Source: Siphonodentalium dalli (Eukaryota > Mollusca > Scaphopoda > Gadilida > Siphonodentaliidae). Taken from it: 64,000 nt of DNA. The notes beneath the pieces were generated by a model, which saw only the letters and a program-made list of their open reading frames with translations, was not told the origin of the DNA and did no database searches. A program made the translations under genes and the position numbers. Where the stretch lies: NCBI GenBank assembly GCA_032622095.1, contig CP136062.1, positions 153,196,875 to 153,260,874 on the forward strand, in the 5' to 3' direction. The number at the start of each line of letters is the position of its first letter. The stretch's first letter is position 1. Below are positions 2,448 through 9,780 of this stretch, piece after piece.

Positions 2448-3757
2448 CTACTCTGGTGTTTCTCCTGTTGTATTCCCCGAGCATGCGTAATCTTCTATGC
2501 TGTTCCAGTCCCTGATCGTTCTCACGAAGAATGATTGTTTATATTGCTCCGTGTTGGCTCTTATTGGTTCGAACGATCGTGAGTTGATACACTCTTGGCT
2601 CGAAATGATGTTATCACTTTTGTGGTCTGGAAACTTTTTTGCTCGGATTTTCCTTCCTTTCTTATCCTTTAGTAAATCATGTGCGTGTATGGCTGGGATT
2701 ATCCCCTCAACCACCTTGCCGAAGAGTTCTATTCTCTTCATCTTTCTGCGGATCTCTAGTGAGTCTAACCGTAGTCCATCAATCATGCTGGTTACTGCGC
2801 CTTTTTCCCGGTCTCTATAGTTGTTGGTGATGAATCTTGCCGCTCTTCTCTGCACTTTCTCTAACTTCTCTATTTCTCCTACTGCGGCGGGGTCCCATAT
2901 TTCTGCTCCATATTCGAGTGATGTTCTTACCATGGCTCTATATGCCGTCTCTCTGGATTTACTGTCCGCTCTTCGTAAGTTTCTGCGTAGGAAGCCTAAG
3001 GTGCTATTGGCCCTTCCAGTGATCTTGGATATGTGCGTTGACCATTTTAGGTCATCTGTGATGGTCAGTCCAAGGTAGACGCTTTGTTTGACTGATTGCA
3101 GAATTTGATGGTCAAGCTGGTAGATGAACGATGTTTTGTTCTTGTCCTTGTTCTTCATGGACATTATGGAGCATTTTCCAGCATTGAATCTCATCCCCCA
3201 GGTTTTTGCCCATTCTTCTAATGATGTCAGATCCTGTTGTAGTTGGATGTGGTCTTGGTGGTCATTTATCTGGCGGTATAGTATGCAGTCATCAGCAAAG
3301 AGTCTTACTTCTGATTTGACTGCTTGTGGAAGGTCGTTGATGTGGCAGAGGAATAATAGGGGTCCTAGTACCGTACCTTGGGGTACTCCCGATTCCACTG
3401 GAACACTTTTGGATGATTCTCCTTCCAACACTACTCTCATATACCTTTTTGTTAGGAAGCTTGTCAGCCAAGTGTGTATTGGTCCTGTGATTCCGTAAGA
3501 CTTCAGTTTGTATAGCAGACTCTGGTGTGGTACTGTGTCAAATGCTTTGGAAAAGTCGAGGATTGCCATGTCAGTTTGTTTCTCCGAGTCAAAGGACGAT
3601 AGTAGATCTTGTGTGGTGTTTACAAGCTGGGTTACACATGAGTGGCCAGATCTAAATCCGTGGTTTCTATCAGTCAGTAGGTCGCAGAGTTCCAGGTGGT
3701 CGCGGATATGTCTACACAGGACGTGCTCTAGTAGCTTACAGCATGTTGAAGTGAGTG
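2448..3757 (-). pseudogene. LINE ORF2, C-terminal part: reverse transcriptase palm/thumb and C-terminal domain
   Basis: This is the third reading-frame block of ORF2. It resumes at about 3757 after a frameshift and runs open to a TAG stop at 2448. Numbered from the methionine at 3569, motif A is LDFSKAFD (residues 4-11) with catalytic Asp5, the SGVPQG-type motif is at residues 60-65, and motif C is FADD (91-94). The two aspartates of FADD and the motif A aspartate would bind the metal ions for DNA synthesis. A basic C-terminal region follows, with RRAARFI and RDWNSI blocks typical of CR1/L2-like LINEs. All core catalytic residues are present. The block lacks its own start and is inactive only because it is out of frame with the upstream part. 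Strong match to the non-LTR reverse transcriptase family. Confidence 0.95.
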
Positions 3758-5080
3758 ATACTGTAGTTGGATGGTTGGTGAACGTCTCCTTTCTTATAAA
3801 CTGGTGTTATGTTTGCGTTCAGCCAGTCTTCTGGAAGGGTGCCGGTCTCTATAGATTTGTTGAATATGGTGGTAATGGGTTTCGCCAGTACGTTGGCCAG
3901 TAATTTGAGTACTTTGTTAGGGATGTTGTCTGGACCTGGTGCCTTTGATGGTTTTATATCTTCCAGGAGTTTCTTTATTCCTTCTTCTGTGATTTCCAGT
4001 GGTTTGATGTTTACACTGTTTTGTGGTATGGATGGTAGCTCTTCGTTAGTGTATATGGTGAATACCGACTGGAATTGCTTATTTAGTAGCTCCGCCTTCT
4101 CTTTTGCATCGTTTGTGAGTGCTGTTCCTGTTTTTAGCGGTGGCGTACCTGTTCTTTCTTGTTTTCGGGCCTTCGTGTAGCTCCAGAAGGGTTTTGATGT
4201 TTTCTTTTCCTTCCCCTTCTTTATTATGGTGTTTATATGTTCTTGTTCTGCTTTCCTCATTTCTCTCCTACATTTTTTCTGGTGGTCTTTATACTCTTTC
4301 CAACATCCTGTTTCTTTAGCTTTCCTGTGTAATCTTGCTTTTTTCCTTAGAATCAATTTGAGTCTTCTATTTATCCATGGCAGTTGTTTGCGTCGACATC
4401 TTGGTGCTTTTGGTACTCTTTTTTCTACAACTTCTTTGATGGAATCGCGGAAGAAGTTCCACATGGTGTTGATGTTGGTATCAGTAGAAAAATCTTCTAT
4501 TTGCACCGCTATCTTCCCCACATCTGCAGCTATGTCAGTCCAATTTGCCTTGTCGAATAGATATCTAGTTCTCTGTACTGGTTTATTGTAGGATGGAGTT
4601 GGAGAACAGTCAGCAATGATCATATTATGGTCTGATATGCCAGGTATTGTAGTGGTGGATTTTATTAATGCTGGATTGTTTGTTATGATTAGGTCCAGTA
4701 GGTTTCCTTCCCTGGTTGGGTCCTCCTGTACCTGTTTTAGTCCTAGTTTCGTGCATACGTTGATGAGGTCATTCTGTATCTCTCGGTCTTGTGCACCCGG
4801 CCTTACAGTCATTGTGTCCCAGTCGATGTCAGGACAATTAAAGTCTCCTCCAAGTATGAAGCTGGAGTCAGTCTTTTTCATCAGTGCTTTGATGGATTTT
4901 TCTAGATTTTCTACGTCTGATTTGGATCGATGTGCCATGTAGAAACTTCCCACGTGTATATCCTTGCCTCCTTGTATTGACAGTTTTATCCATTCAATTT
5001 CGCAGTTGGTGATATATTCAGTCTTCTCTATTGCAACTGCTTCCTGTTGAATGGCAATGAAGACTCCCCCACCGTAGTAT
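3736..5080 (-). pseudogene. LINE ORF2, middle part: APE-type endonuclease end and reverse transcriptase fingers
   Basis: This is the second frame block. It is entered by a frameshift near 5080, where a GGGVFIAI block typical of these endonucleases first appears, and it ends at a stop at 3736. From the internal methionine at 4953, endonuclease motifs are GGDFN (residues 35-39), LDLI (86-89) and SDH (107-109), the His of SDH being catalytic in APE-type nucleases. A basic linker with PWIN and KPFW motifs follows, then the first reverse transcriptase blocks KAPGPDNIP and the segment leading to SNY. At about 3757-3762 the usual NYRP(V/I)SL motif is broken: NY is present, RP is lost and the frame shifts, consistent with a deletion of a few bases. 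The endonuclease nicks target DNA to prime reverse transcription. Confidence 0.94.
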
Positions 5081-5720
5081 CTCGGTCGTTCCTATAGGCC
5101 GTATAATCTTCAGGAAAGACTTCAGCTGACTTGATGGCATTTTGGGCTGGTTCTTTTCCTGGTTTCTTTCCTTTGAGCCATGACTCTGTGCCGATGATAA
5201 CATCAGGCTTTATGTAGGAGGTTGCGATTTCCAGTTCCGCTTTGTTGCTAACTAGGCTTCTACAGTTAACAATTAGCAATCTGAGATTGTCTTTCCTTGG
5301 TGTGTTAAAGGTATTTTGGGATGCTAATCTGTTCGATCTTGATGCTGAGTCTAGAGTTGTGTCTGCTTTGGGACTGCTAGTATGGGTCTGGTCGAAAATT
5401 GAGTTCATACTTCGGATGGAGCTGTCTAGATGGCTTAGTGTTTGGTAGTAGTTGGAGGTACTGACTTCATAGCTATGGAATGTGAAGCTCTCGATGTTGA
5501 TGCTGTCACATTTCATGCATTTCCATTCTTTGCTGGGTCTTTCTTCTAGTGATTGGACTTCTGATGTGTCTAGGTCTACGCATGAGTAGTGATGCCAAAC
5601 ATCACAGCTATCGCAGCATACTCCTACGTTGACTGTCCATGTCACTGCTCCTTCACATACTCCGCAGGGGTATACTGATTTTTCCTTTTGCTTGGTGGGA
5701 GCTTTCTTTTTTGCTTTTTT

Positions 5721-5774
5721 GGGCCCCGGGTTTTGTTCGATGCCAGCGATGATGAGGAGGAGGCGCAGGTGTTT
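5721..5774 (-). other. 2A-like ribosome-skipping peptide in LINE ORF2
   Basis: The sense strand encodes LRLLLIIAGIEQNPGP, matching the 2A pattern of a hydrophobic run followed by (D/G)(V/I)ExNPG|P. The skip would fall between Gly193 and Pro194 (codon 5721-5723), separating the repeat-rich leader from the PHD-endonuclease-RT part. 2A-like peptides are known in ORFs of APE-type LINEs of sea urchin, amphioxus and molluscs. Here Gly replaces the usual Asp before Ile-Glu, a change that may lower activity, so function is inferred and not certain. Confidence 0.85.
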
Positions 5775-5818
5775 TGCCGTTGTTATGTTCCCATATCTCC
5801 TTTTGTGGCTATCTGTTA

Positions 5819-6207
5819 GGGGTATAGTATGGTTCAGCCCATACCGACCCGCATTTGTTTTATTTTTGTTGTGTAGATCCTGGTGTTTTTGGTTTTGGTG
5901 TGCATAGAGTGTAGCATGGATCAGCCCATGCCTACCCTTCCTCTGCAGTGCCCGTTGGTAATGGTGTGAATAGGGTGTAGCATGGATCAGCCCATGCCTA
6001 CCCTTTCTCTGCAGTGCCAGTTGGATTGTGCAGGGTGTAGCATAGTACAGCCCATGCCTACCCTTTCTCTGCAGTGCCAGTTGGAGTGTGTAGGGTGTAG
6101 CATGGTACAGCCCATGCCTACCCTTTCTCCGCAGTGCTCCTGATGGTGTGGTCTGGTGTGTTCTTTGTCTGGTATGGGTTATAGCATGGTTCAGCCCATA
6201 CCGACCC
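5819..6207 (-). repeat. Six tandem hairpin/peptide repeats in the LINE ORF2 leader
   Basis: Units lie at about 5819-5850, 5907-5937, 5973-6003, 6033-6063, 6093-6123 and 6176-6207; four start 60-66 bases apart. In sense orientation each has a left arm G(C/T)ATGG, a loop GCTG(A/T)(A/T) and a right arm CCATGC, CCATAC or CTATGC, with outer GGGT/ACCC pairing. Each unit encodes GR(H/Y)GL(Y/N/I)HA(T/I). Variants between units keep pairing in the sense RNA as C-G, U-A or G-U. Confidence 0.85.
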
Positions 6208-6219
6208 ACATTTTGTTTA

Positions 6220-7008
6220 CTACCAGCAGTCTTTGAGTATCTGGTTCGTGATTTTCCGGAGCCAGACTTCACTGAGTAATTCATCAGGGTGGATGCCGTC
6301 ATTTCTGTACAGCTTGTAATTGTACCTGGTCTCAGTCCTGATGTTTCGCCGTGCGCGTCCTGTTACGTGCCTCTTGTACGTGCGCAGGTCGGATGAGAAT
6401 TCCATTGAATTTTGATGGTGAGACTGGTTGACTGCCTTAATCTCGATGTTAAGTTGTCTGATTTGTTCAGTCAGTACGTTTTGGTGGTCTTCTGGATTAG
6501 GAGGTTGTATTGCTGGTGGATATCTTGCCGGGTTCTCTCGGTGTTTTCTTACCTGCTTGTCGTATCGGTAATTGTTCCAGTCAGAGATTGAGTATGCTGG
6601 AGTCTCGAGGATAGTCAATCTACAGTCTTGGTGTCTTCTAATTTCTCTGTAAAGTTCTTGATATTGTAGAGATAATTGATGGACTGTATTTTGGTCACTG
6701 ATTGTGGAGTAACCGCCGGCTATAAGTTTGGTTAGGTCACACGTTCCAGTCCAAATGTAGACGTGTGTGGGTCCGTGCCGCGAGACAAATCGTCCAAAAC
6801 TCTGCTTGATGAACGTGAGTCTATTGGTGGTAGATGCTCCTGATTTGTCCCAGAAGATAATTTCCTTTTCAACACTATCTTCTTTGTCCACTTTATTTTT
6901 AAGATAGCTACCTTTGCTGTCAGTTAGTAGAAGTGGTATTCTTTGCGGGCCCCTCCTTGGCTTTTCCTTCTCTTTCCTCAGGAATTTGTTTAGCTTCCTT
7001 TCAGTCAT
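6220..7008 (-). CDS. LINE ORF1, SGNH/GDSL esterase-like protein
   Basis: This intact 262-residue frame starts at the ATG at 7008 and stops at 6220, overlapping ORF2. A basic N-terminus (residues 1-23) precedes a GDSL-like block I, LLLTDSKG (27-33), with a candidate nucleophile Ser31. A GTCD block (88-91) sits where SGNH hydrolases carry GxND, and the C-terminal block NDGIHPD (236-242) supplies the Asp237/His240 pair typical of block V. This arrangement matches the esterase-type ORF1 proteins known from CR1-clade LINEs, thought to act in the ribonucleoprotein particle, perhaps through lipid or membrane contacts. The asparagine of block III appears replaced by Cys, so catalysis is uncertain. 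No premature stop or frameshift is visible, unlike ORF2. Confidence 0.8.
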   Translation of the reverse strand: MTERKLNKFLRKEKEKPRRGPQRIPLLLTDSKGSYLKNKVDKEDSVEKEIIFWDKSGASTTNRLTFIKQSFGRFVSRHGPTHVYIWTGTCDLTKLIAGGYSTISDQNTVHQLSLQYQELYREIRRHQDCRLTILETPAYSISDWNNYRYDKQVRKHRENPARYPPAIQPPNPEDHQNVLTEQIRQLNIEIKAVNQSHHQNSMEFSSDLRTYKRHVTGRARRNIRTETRYNYKLYRNDGIHPDELLSEVWLRKITNQILKDCW

Positions 7009-7010
7009 TT

Positions 7011-7658
7011 TCCATTAGTTGTTTATTCGTTGACGTTGGTACAGTACGTGGCGTTGCCGGTGATGTTTTTAAGTACCGGTGTTGCAACAGCGCCGCTTAT
7101 TTCTTCATCTTTTCAGGCAAAGGTGGTATATTGGGTGCCCAGTCATAGATTTGTTAGCCACACATGATATACAATTTATATATAAACATAGGATAATAGA
7201 ATTATAAGTGTATATGAGTGACCTCCCGATGAATGTACAAATTGACGTGTTCATGCGTTTTGTCGTTCCGAAAAATGTTCGCAGACATAAATACCGATGT
7301 TTGAAGTCATTGAATTAAGCCGGAATTATTTTCTCCATGCGATGGGTTGGTGCATTCGCACAATACGGTTAGTAACTCTGGAAGTTTGGAGATCAAGGGT
7401 GGTAATTCTAAAATAGTGAAGAACAAGGGAGATAACCTGATGTGGTGTATATAACTATGTGATGAAATGACGTGGCACTTCGTTTTTGGTTGAGACCACG
7501 GTTGCGGGTAATAGCCATTTTGACAATTTAAACATTATGTAGATTAAGATTTATGACCATTTTCAAATGACATATTCAAGGTATTGCTTGCTGTATATTT
7601 TTTATTTTATAGATGCTCAGTGTCGGTACTGAAAGTGGTTTTCTGCTGGAAATTTTGC
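7011..7658. other. LINE 5' flank and unassigned sequence
   Basis: The first 100-140 bases may be LINE 5' UTR, but no boundary or target-site duplication could be set. The rest shows no gene or clear repeat. Confidence 0.35.
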
Positions 7659-7762
7659 CTCGTCGGCGCCGTCATTCTATTCGGATGCACGGGTGTGACG
7701 TGACGCTCAGCTCGTCGGCGCCGTCATTCTATTCGGACGCACGGGTGTGACGTGACGCTCAG
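7659..7762. repeat. 52-bp tandem duplication
   Basis: Two abutting 52-bp copies (7659-7710 and 7711-7762) start CTCGTCGGCGCCGTCATTCT and differ at one position. The unit is GC-rich, with several CpG and two TGACG motifs, unlike the AT-rich surroundings. Confidence 0.95.
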
Positions 7763-7902
7763 AAGGGGAGATGATTTCTCCTGATGTTTGAGTTAAGTTA
7801 TGGTGTATATCTTGTTCGGGGTCTGATTTCTTGCAGATTTGGCTAGTTAGCCGATGGGCTGAAGTTTGTTCAAAAGGCATGTACTGTTATTGCCTATACA
7901 TG

Positions 7903-8119
7903 TATGTATTATATTGGGCTGCATTAATGTGCTGCGTGAGCTATTCTCCAGTTATTGGAGGGGGATCCGGGCCTATGTATATTATATTGGGCTGACTTAA
8001 TGTGCTGCGTGGGCTATTCTCCAGTTATTGGAGGGGGATCCGGGCCTATGTATATTATATTGGGCTGACTTAATGTGCTGCGTGGGCTATTCTCCAGTTA
8101 TTCGAGAGGGGATCCGGAA
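7903..8119. repeat. 71-73-bp tandem repeat, three copies
   Basis: Copies begin at about 7903, 7974 and 8047 with TATGTAT and contain ATTATATTGGGCTG, TGTGCTGCGTG, CTCCAGTTATT and GGGGATCCGG. The last two copies are nearly identical. Confidence 0.93.
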
Positions 8120-9780
8120 AGTTTGCTGCCGGAGTCGAGCGAAGTATTTTTGGTCCCTAATACTGGGAATTCCCAATTTATTTCTGTATTGCATGCCAGC
8201 GCACTGTCTGTATTTCTCGATTCGTGTAACAAGTTTTAGATAGCAAAGATAATGGATAATGATATATGATTTGTTGTGACTATGTTTCCAATTCCGTCGT
8301 GTTTCATTGACGAAATAGAATATAATGCTTCGATTGGAGAAAAATCTTACAAACATGACATCGTTAACAAATCAATGATATTGCTGATATTGACATTTAT
8401 TTTGAGTCGTAATTGCATAATATACCAAACTTGTATAGGTTAAGAAGAGACATTCCACTTATCCCAGACCGGATTGAAATACACTCTGTAGGAACTGTTA
8501 CGTCTGAAGTCGTTCTATCTCCGGTATTGTGATGGTTCTTGACTGATTTGATACGGTTCCTTATGATAAAAAAATTCTCATTTTCGGGACAAAATCACGC
8601 ATAATTATATATATCTTAAATACATTAAACTTTCTTGAACGAACAGAGGCTGCATACGTGCCGTTTTACCGAAACCTGAATTTTAGATCACAATTAACTC
8701 ATATATAGCGAGTTAACGTGTAATTATCAACATGTAATCACTGGAAATCAAGTCTTGTAAACGTAATTTCTTTGTTTTCGGTGGCATACCGACTGTGAAA
8801 CGCACTCTGAAGACGAACACTCAGTATAAATTGTACCTGTGTTATTCTTCTGTAAAATAGCTGAGGAAATATCCCGATGTGTGTCGATAATTTGGAGCAT
8901 TAGCCTCATAATCGCAACTTATGAGTGTTACGGTTCTATTTCAAGGTAATCACGGTTCTTTACATGATATTTATTCGAACGATATCTGCACTTTGGGATC
9001 ATTTAGTTGTGTGTAACAAACGTTTTAAACCCGATAATTGTTGCAGCGGATGTTACCTACATAATCCAAAAAGTTTATTAAGAAATAAGAGTATAGCTAT
9101 CTATTATAACAGACGATTAAGTGGCATTACCTTCACTTCGAGTGGCAGATACAACATATTGAAAGTCATGTTGGGTATAGGATCATATATAATCGTGCAC
9201 GCCCGCATAATTAACCCAATGAAATTAGACATCTACTGTCATGATATTATGTTAATTTAAATGGACATGGCTCCGAGTCATTCGAGCTTCCAAATTTTGT
9301 CTTAAGTAATTTCTAAGGATGTATAAGATTGCTTGCAAATACAAGAAATGTTGATAAGTACGGTATATATATCGGACTCATATGCTCTGAGAAATACATA
9401 CTGTGGTCAGAGCCCTATTCCAGCTGTTTTTTCGTACAGACGTGAAACAAAGGCTCTTTATTTCTACCATATCAAGAATAGAATAATACGGAACGCTCTT
9501 TTTCTGTTCCATGTCGTGCAAATGGCTGTTTTTGTTTGGAACCCAAACATCGCGGGTTCAAAGTTGTATTTTTCACGACTCCAATGTGTCTTTCTGTGAC
9601 ATTATTATACTGCTCATAGAAAGGTATTTCATTTGTTTATCGAGCTATTTCTATATCGGGAAAACTTAAAAAGCGACTATTATTACGCGTATTTTGGAGC
9701 GCAAACCACCAAGTGACTTTATTTGATAAACGAAGGTCTGTGGTTGAAAGTTCCAGGTGGGATATGTGTTCAATTCTAGC
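8120..9780. other. Unassigned AT-rich sequence with old interspersed fragments
   Basis: No gene is supported; the frames of 66-111 residues here show no recognisable motifs. A degenerate interspersed motif (GCTCTTTATTTCTACCATAT, about 9452-9471) recurs elsewhere. At 9265-9300 a block with CATTCGAGCTTCCAAATT-like sequence recurs inverted at about 24745-24785. Confidence 0.35.

Follow-up and report, generated by a model that had tools for sequence, protein, structure and literature searches.

We found that the minus strand of the window, the whole 64,000-nucleotide stretch of Siphonodentalium dalli DNA analysed here, carries six RNA hairpins in a LINE, and that compensatory changes maintain the same hairpin in the sense RNA of LINE families across this genome. 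At about an even chance, we read the window array as the tandem multiplication of an ancient, conserved hairpin that acts in cis on the RNA of a radiation of 2A/PHD-type LINEs and links the end of ORF1 translation to the start of ORF2 translation.

The LINE runs along the minus strand from 7203, its apparent 5' end, where identity begins in blastn comparisons of the window with the copies L081 and L096, to an apparent 3' tail of short TACAGA-like repeats at 2375-2403, recognised from tandem repeats and the sequence of the window copy alone. The element, with its short-repeat 3' tail, may belong to the CR1 clade. The 5' untranslated region occupies 7009-7203 and is followed by ORF1 (6220-7008, 262 aa, with an SGNH/GDSL-hydrolase-like fold), identified from the ORF list, a cross-family ORF1 alignment, AlphaFold and Foldseek, with a TAG stop codon at 6220-6222. 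The first open stretch of the ORF2 frame in the ORF list (5028-6302, 424 aa) contains the leader with the array, a PHD finger (5508-5666; Pfam PF00628, E 4.5e-6) and, between the leader and the ORF2 protein, a 2A-like peptide ending in LRLLLIIAGIEQNPGP, read from the translation with its position computed (5721-5768). In this copy the frame is interrupted past 5028. Pfam places an APE-like endonuclease domain on a second frame piece (4615-4944; PF14529, E 1.4e-13) and a reverse transcriptase domain on a third (3060-3566; PF00078, E 3.1e-25), and with ORF2 in three pieces in the ORF list the window copy is a broken LINE.

The six hairpins lie at minus-strand positions 5818-6209, directly 3' of the ORF1 stop codon and upstream of the 2A peptide. 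Hairpin 1 (6175-6209; cmsearch E 6.3e-11) reads GTATGG-GCTGAA-CCATGC and contains one U.G pair; in L081, a close copy, the stem base is 9 nt past the end of ORF1, counted from the stop codon. Hairpin 2 (6091-6125; E 2.2e-12) reads GCATGG-GCTGTA-CCATGC, and hairpin 3 (6031-6065; E 1e-9, also found by pattern search) reads GCATGG-GCTGTA-CTATGC with one G.U pair. Hairpins 4 (5971-6005; E 3.1e-12) and 5 (5905-5939; E 6.9e-11) both read GCATGG-GCTGAT-CCATGC, and hairpin 6 (5818-5852; E 8.3e-11) reads GTATGG-GCTGAA-CCATAC. The covariance model gave six matches in the 64 kb, every one inside the array, four units of the window's own family being part of the model so that the window matches by construction. 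Tandem Repeats Finder assigned a period of 60 to the middle of the array (5905-6137). All six stem-loops that the initial annotation had placed at 5819-6207 are thus present, both in the sequence and as covariance-model matches, and its U.G unit (6176-6207) and G.U unit (6033-6063) read as it described. In this family the hairpin arms contain AUGs out of the ORF2 frame (for example at 6209-6211), and in units 1, 4, 5 and 6 arm and loop together form the two-codon reading frame AUG GGC UGA.

The two wobble pairs had been offered as a sign of selection on the sense RNA. The pairs exist, but a single copy gives them less evidential weight than was claimed. The CTATGC arm of unit 3 occurs in no other place among the matches listed (141 matched) and is a change of the window copy; L007 has the same kind of change, but in another unit. 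Since the window G.U wobble is private to a copy with a broken ORF2, it is not by itself evidence of selection. When the window leader was folded alone, the sense strand gave z -3.28 (0/100 shuffles) and the antisense strand z -1.51 (5/100 shuffles). The strand argument that rests on the window copy is therefore modest, and, as judged by sequence comparison, the strong evidence for structure is that of the other families and not that of the window copy.

To follow the motif beyond the window, we searched the genome (2.2 Gb, 9 contigs), which held at least 31 matches to the array DNA and, with 150 of 1205 candidates scored, at least 150 to the 2A-PHD region, the lowest at 43% identity. We sampled 80 leaders, 16 longer stretches and 18 places found with an inner-core pattern, and assigned them manually to 17 groups, F0 (the window's), F1, F2a, F2b and F3-F15, with subgroups F1b and F3b. 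PHD identity was 37-67% among the 14 of 17 groups compared, F7 and F15 having been lost by the motif filter and F14 being absent. A 2A ending in NPGP stands upstream of the ORF2 enzyme domains in the window and most groups, and HPGP replaces it in the representatives of F1b, F2b, F5 and F8. The results showed the same hairpin in 14 of the 17 groups, at one to six copies per leader over all families; F1, F2a, F2b, F3, F4, F5, F6, F8, F10 and F12 carry one to five hairpins of the same plan between the ORF1 end and the 2A. The F6 hairpin has one inner-stem mismatch and matches the model at E 1.1e-6. A clear core motif was not found in F7, F9 and F11, each of which still folds a hairpin after the stop codon. 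The model (R1) matches by construction in its source families, two of whose units came from non-representative copies (L037 for F8, L074 for F10); its independent matches are F6 (L088), a unit in the F2a 5' UTR, and F13-F15, which were selected by the inner core.

The inner-core pattern GTGTGGN6CCACGCTA occurred 100 times in the genome, compared with 3 times for a reversed control. Thirteen of the 18 inner-core places were LINE leaders, including the three further groups F13-F15, and five (L101, L102, L103, L106 and L107) were not. These five matched the model over its inner part only, at 12.5-18.2 bits, compared with 27.2-46.1 bits for the best match per LINE leader. One of them, L101 (G000:C8:47106907-47109007), is a satellite-like array with the open repeat CGLTHPKDTAMHV and an inner core without an outer stem. 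The additional F2a unit lies in the 5' UTR of L083 (1048-1082, E about 1e-10), approximately 60 nt upstream of the ORF1 AUG; it has A-U where the loop-closing pair is otherwise G-C, and its 141-bp surroundings have one genomic place only.

The hairpin follows one plan: an outer stem, a short asymmetric internal loop, a 6-bp inner stem of the GUGUGG/CCACGC type, a GCUNNN hexaloop and a UA on the 3' side. In a hand table of 33 units, the 5' internal loop was 1-3 nt long in 30 and the 3' internal loop 3-4 nt long in 30, with its U in 29 and its A in 31. The first three places of the 6-nt loop were G in 28, C in 27 and U in 28 units, and inner pair 5 was U.G in 25. The outer stems differ between families yet pair, as AGGGU/ACCCU in F0, GUCAG/CUGAC in F3, AUCAG/CUGAU in F4, GCAAG/CUUGC in F8, and CCCAG/CUGGG and UUAG/CUAA in F12. 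The conserved unpaired letters suggest that a factor, which may be the ribosome, an initiation factor or the ORF1 protein, recognises the hairpin, and that it would not be a mere road-block.

We then assessed the pairing statistically. A descriptor scan of whole leaders detected 33 sense hairpins in 17 leaders, compared with a shuffle mean of 0.33 (maximum 3; 200 shuffles), with at least one match in 12 of the 17; among these leaders F6, F7, F9, F11 and the divergent copy L020 gave no descriptor match. In an alignment of 26 units, whose outer-stem register we fixed manually while seeing the structure, as in the G.U/A.C and tree tests, and many of whose units were first seen by the pairing descriptor, 95% of cells were paired compared with 81% after shuffling, 42 cells had two-sided changes compared with 13.1, and the covariation score was 0.505 compared with 0.225. 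None of 500 shuffles reached any of the three values, and sliding the structure along the alignment lowered pairing to 30-49%. Under a tree-aware null in which substitutions were redistributed on a tree of 33 units (300 replicates, own script), 82 compensatory cells were observed against a mean of 15.0 and a maximum of 45, and the paired fraction was 0.937 against a maximum of 0.796. The top four of all column pairs in the tree-aware ranking were structural, two having E below 0.05 individually, and four inner pairs and one outer pair fell outside the top 16.

The whole-leader scan avoids both the hand-set register and the pairing-based choice of units, and so does a test on units selected by the inner core only, from which L020 was omitted. 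In that test an outer stem of at least 4 bp was present in 31 of 39 units. The summed outer-stem length of ten deep families was 51 compared with 33.4 after shuffling (7 of 20,000 shuffles reached 51), and that of the first units of 15 leaders was 69 compared with 50.9 (12 of 20,000 shuffles). Across 297 cells in 27 units there were 30 G.U and 5 A.C combinations, an excess that points to the sense RNA as the structured strand. In all 20 leaders the minimum free energy of the sense RNA past the ORF1 stop codon was better than the average of its shuffles, with a clear margin in 11; in the other nine, F0 included, z was not clearly below the shuffles. The antisense strand also folded well in the F5, F6, F7, F9, F10 and F12 leaders, and some ORF1 control segments were very stable (F2b z -4.35, F1b z -3.03); free energy by itself did not decide the matter. 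The F12 leader was counted from its DCW codons and not from the true stop codon in the descriptor scan and in the free-energy and distance measures. Selection on sense-strand RNA structure, as the initial annotation had proposed, is supported by covariation above the tree-based null, computed with our own script and not R-scape, and by the sense-ward wobbles.

Two explanations would make the RNA stem incidental. Conservation of the encoded peptide (of the kind GRHGLYHATP, GWCGLYHAKP or GLCGLNHAIP), with the stem as a by-product, would account for the single codon phase of the F0, F1 and F2 units, whose spacings are all multiples of 3, for the one phase common to 29 of 37 units across families, and for an ORF2 frame open across the leader in most groups; the array of F0, F1 and F2 is therefore either translated or at any rate held open. 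However, phases differ within single leaders, with two in F3, F4, F5 and F10 and all three in F12, so that one RNA core encodes unrelated peptides, the outer stems pair with wholly different sequences, and one unit sits in a 5' UTR (F2a). Leader dN/dS was 0.70, 0.79, 0.60, 0.63 and 0.37 (the last on 19 codons) in five close pairs and 0.39-0.62 in deeper pairs with computable dS; the post-2A values of the same five close pairs were 0.40, 0.61, undefined, 0 and 0.04 on 18-33 codons, so that constraint on the leader looks weaker, a real but thin contrast. Phase, re-paired outer stems and the unit in the 5' UTR disfavour peptide conservation as the cause, to which dN/dS adds a little, and leave it very improbable. 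DNA-level inverted repeats or recent tandem duplication, without any selection on RNA, are hardly credible at all. Within-family tandem copies are partly recent duplicates, and the antisense descriptor scan found 7 hairpins compared with 0.8 in shuffles (maximum 4), as perfect palindromes must give; against this stand the compensatory change among families at 37-67% PHD identity and the excess of G.U over A.C, which DNA cruciforms do not favour.

The initial annotation had named three possible roles: a binding site for ORF1 protein, control of ORF2 translation and RNA packaging. Control of ORF2 translation fits the anatomy best, the base of the first stem standing 8-48 nt past the ORF1 stop codon in 14 of 20 leaders, those measured, for which we chose the stem sizes manually. 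The first F12 unit is inside an extended ORF1 tail. The ORF2 start that had been placed at 6302 is an AUG in the ORF2 frame, but it lies inside ORF1, 80 nt before its stop codon, and 6284 is a second candidate. The first AUG past the ORF1 stop codon stands at +4 in F3 and F4, at +10 in F2a, at +16 in F5 and F10, at +31 in F2b, within the loop of hairpin 1, and at +68 to +136 in F1, F6, F7, F8, F9, F11 and F13. In F1b, F2a, F3 and F4 a hairpin begins 5-15 nt past a candidate ORF2 AUG.

We next examined the frame of the first AUG, in a table that omits F1b, whose frame was not found, and does not list F3b, F14 or F15. In 13 of 15 families, all but F0 and F12, the first AUG was in the ORF2 frame, which was open from there as far as the PHD; per copy it was in the ORF2 frame in 40 of 55, with F0 copies making up nine of the 15 misses. 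The family count has a nominal binomial p of 3e-5 against 1/3. Control start points inside ORF1 gave the ORF2 frame in 1478 of 2269 (65%), and against this rate p is about 0.06, the families not being independent. The first-AUG pattern may thus lend weak support to coupling. Several other sequence features were seen near these AUGs. In six copies, L088, L089, L090, L091, L093 and L098 (F6, F7, F8, F9, F11 and F13), the first ORF2-frame AUG opens a hydrophobic, signal-peptide-like stretch upstream of the 2A, and F3 and F4 have a similar stretch from a later AUG (+145). In F7 and F9 (L089 and L091) the stem right after the ORF1 stop codon begins with AGGTAAGTG and can pair with a downstream CACTTACC; AGGTAAGTG resembles a consensus 5' splice site, and may be a hidden splice donor.

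Known systems offer partial parallels. According to reviews (PMC5902531 and PMC5972666, citing Kojima et al. 2005, as excerpted), the silkworm non-LTR element SART1 uses termination-reinitiation, with stop and start codons overlapping as UAAUG and a stable hairpin lying 34 nt downstream. Like SART1, the present elements are two-ORF LINEs with a stable RNA structure shortly past the ORF1 stop codon, which in SART1 is reported, in those excerpts, to aid ORF2 translation. Unlike SART1, they have no UAAUG overlap in 15 stop contexts (13 families and two subfamilies), nor in F11, and they share, by comparison with the SART1 excerpts, a sequence-structure motif that is conserved across families and amplified up to six copies. 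APE-type LINEs of multicellular organisms with a 2A-like NPGP peptide near the start of the endonuclease-RT ORF2 have been described (Odon et al. 2013, via excerpts of PMC4981915); the present elements resemble them in this respect, and the excerpts mention no hairpin array for them. The succession of stop codon, adjoining long stem and next AUG soon after the stem in F7 and F9 recalls the plant pararetrovirus ribosome shunt as outlined in part of PMC5902531; unlike in that outline, the upstream frame here is a full ORF1 of 254-267 codons (eight families measured) and not a short uORF. Initiation at upstream AUGs is favoured by double-stranded elements, most of which start no more than 25 nt past the AUG, and the stem, not protein binding, acts at these start codons (PMC10499604, in the portions available). 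The hairpin shortly past the candidate ORF2 AUG in F1b, F2a, F3 and F4 is similar, but those elements belong to cellular upstream AUGs, and the available portions show neither a shared motif nor a tandem array like those found here. Stem-only action as given in those portions needs no conserved unpaired letters, which by that precedent counts against coupling.

The coupling of ORF1 termination to ORF2 initiation is favoured by the presence of a covarying hairpin by the ORF1 stop codon, in a geometry like that of SART1. The hairpin would sit where mRNA enters the terminating ribosome, or close by, and would hold or redirect the post-termination 40S subunit, which could then start at a nearby AUG, either close to the stop codon (+4 to +31) or past the first hairpin (from +68 onwards). 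In families whose ORF2 translation includes the array, the downstream 2A would detach the leader peptide from the ORF2 protein. Counting against coupling are the first AUGs of F0 and F12, which are out of the ORF2 frame, the F2a hairpin that stands before ORF1 in the 5' UTR, the three groups without a clear core (F7, F9 and F11) and the inner mismatch of F6.

Two further explanations accept a functional RNA structure and assign it another role. The hairpins could be a series of sites bound by the ORF1 protein, or by some other protein, for cis-preference, RNP assembly, export or localisation, with the position after ORF1 incidental; arrays of two to six copies in several families and conserved unpaired letters in loop and internal loop fit this as well, and the F2a copy in the 5' UTR resembles a repeated recognition site. 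This is the chief alternative to coupling; we consider it unlikely, though far from negligible. Eleven groups matched the model below E 0.02 (16 stretches, 15 groups) and only F2a did so upstream of ORF1, the 3' part of the elements having been searched in the window, and a general packaging site would not need a place after ORF1. Direct binding by the ORF1 protein is further weakened by its lack of an apparent RNA-binding domain. The ORF1 protein of the window family shares 31-47% identity with its counterparts in seven other families, and the window ORF1 matched nothing in Pfam at E up to 0.1. An AlphaFold model of the L081 ORF1 (pLDDT 86.9) had SGNH/GDSL acylhydrolases as its best Foldseek matches (E 1.3e-7, TM-score 0.55 by query length), and ORF1 is thus predicted to have an SGNH-hydrolase fold without a recognisable RNA-binding domain. 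An internal ribosome entry site, or frameshifting into ORF2 driven by the hairpins in place of termination-reinitiation, would agree with structured RNA right before or within the ORF2 start and with an ORF2 frame that, in 14 of the 16 rows that have a 2A, opens before the end of ORF1 is reached, as in frameshift overlaps. This explanation is improbable, since the hairpin keeps its place near the ORF1 stop codon while the ORF2 AUG shifts, and no IRES or frameshift family of Rfam matched the array or any of 13 leaders. A fixed frameshift in particular is disfavoured, because the ORF2 frame relative to ORF1 is +1 in some families and +2 in others and no single type fits both.

We tentatively propose, at somewhat less than an even chance, a wider reading in which a new modular RNA motif, recognised by the translation machinery or the ORF1 protein, persisted throughout the radiation of 2A-LINEs, shifted from one reading frame to another, gained copies that set the ORF1:ORF2 ratio and on one occasion was duplicated into the 5' UTR, with the 2A discarding the forced leader peptide. 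The 2A at the ORF2 start may accordingly have a purpose, namely the removal of a leader peptide that an RNA structure happens to encode. The idea of a hairpin that aids ORF2 translation is known; a conserved, covarying, tandemly amplified motif across many LINE families is, as far as we searched, a novel form of that idea. No paper in the literature searched deals with such an array in its title or abstract, a scope that excludes most subscription journals and so does not imply that the array is unpublished. The translation of ORF2 from a two-gene LINE RNA is understood in only a few elements. Because its consensus is clear, it evolves by compensatory change and it occurs naturally in one to six copies, the motif can be tested by simple reporter mutants, and it provides a covariance model for scanning other genomes.

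Known RNA families were compared with the array and with 13 leaders. No covariance model, including those of the iron-responsive element, IRESs, ribozymes and others, matched either; the 13 leaders gave no Rfam match at E up to 1, and in the window region 5000-8500, at E up to 5, the sole match was to a snoRNA model (7705-7789, E 2.1) and did not fall in the array. Two tandem arrays with units of 52 bp and 73 bp lie at 7659-7762 and 7907-8117, upstream of the apparent LINE 5' end (7203) and hence external to the LINE. Elsewhere in the window, positions 892-1363 hold a 39-bp tandem repeat in 12 copies, which is open as a repeated peptide of the kind LHPHNAAILNMNY.
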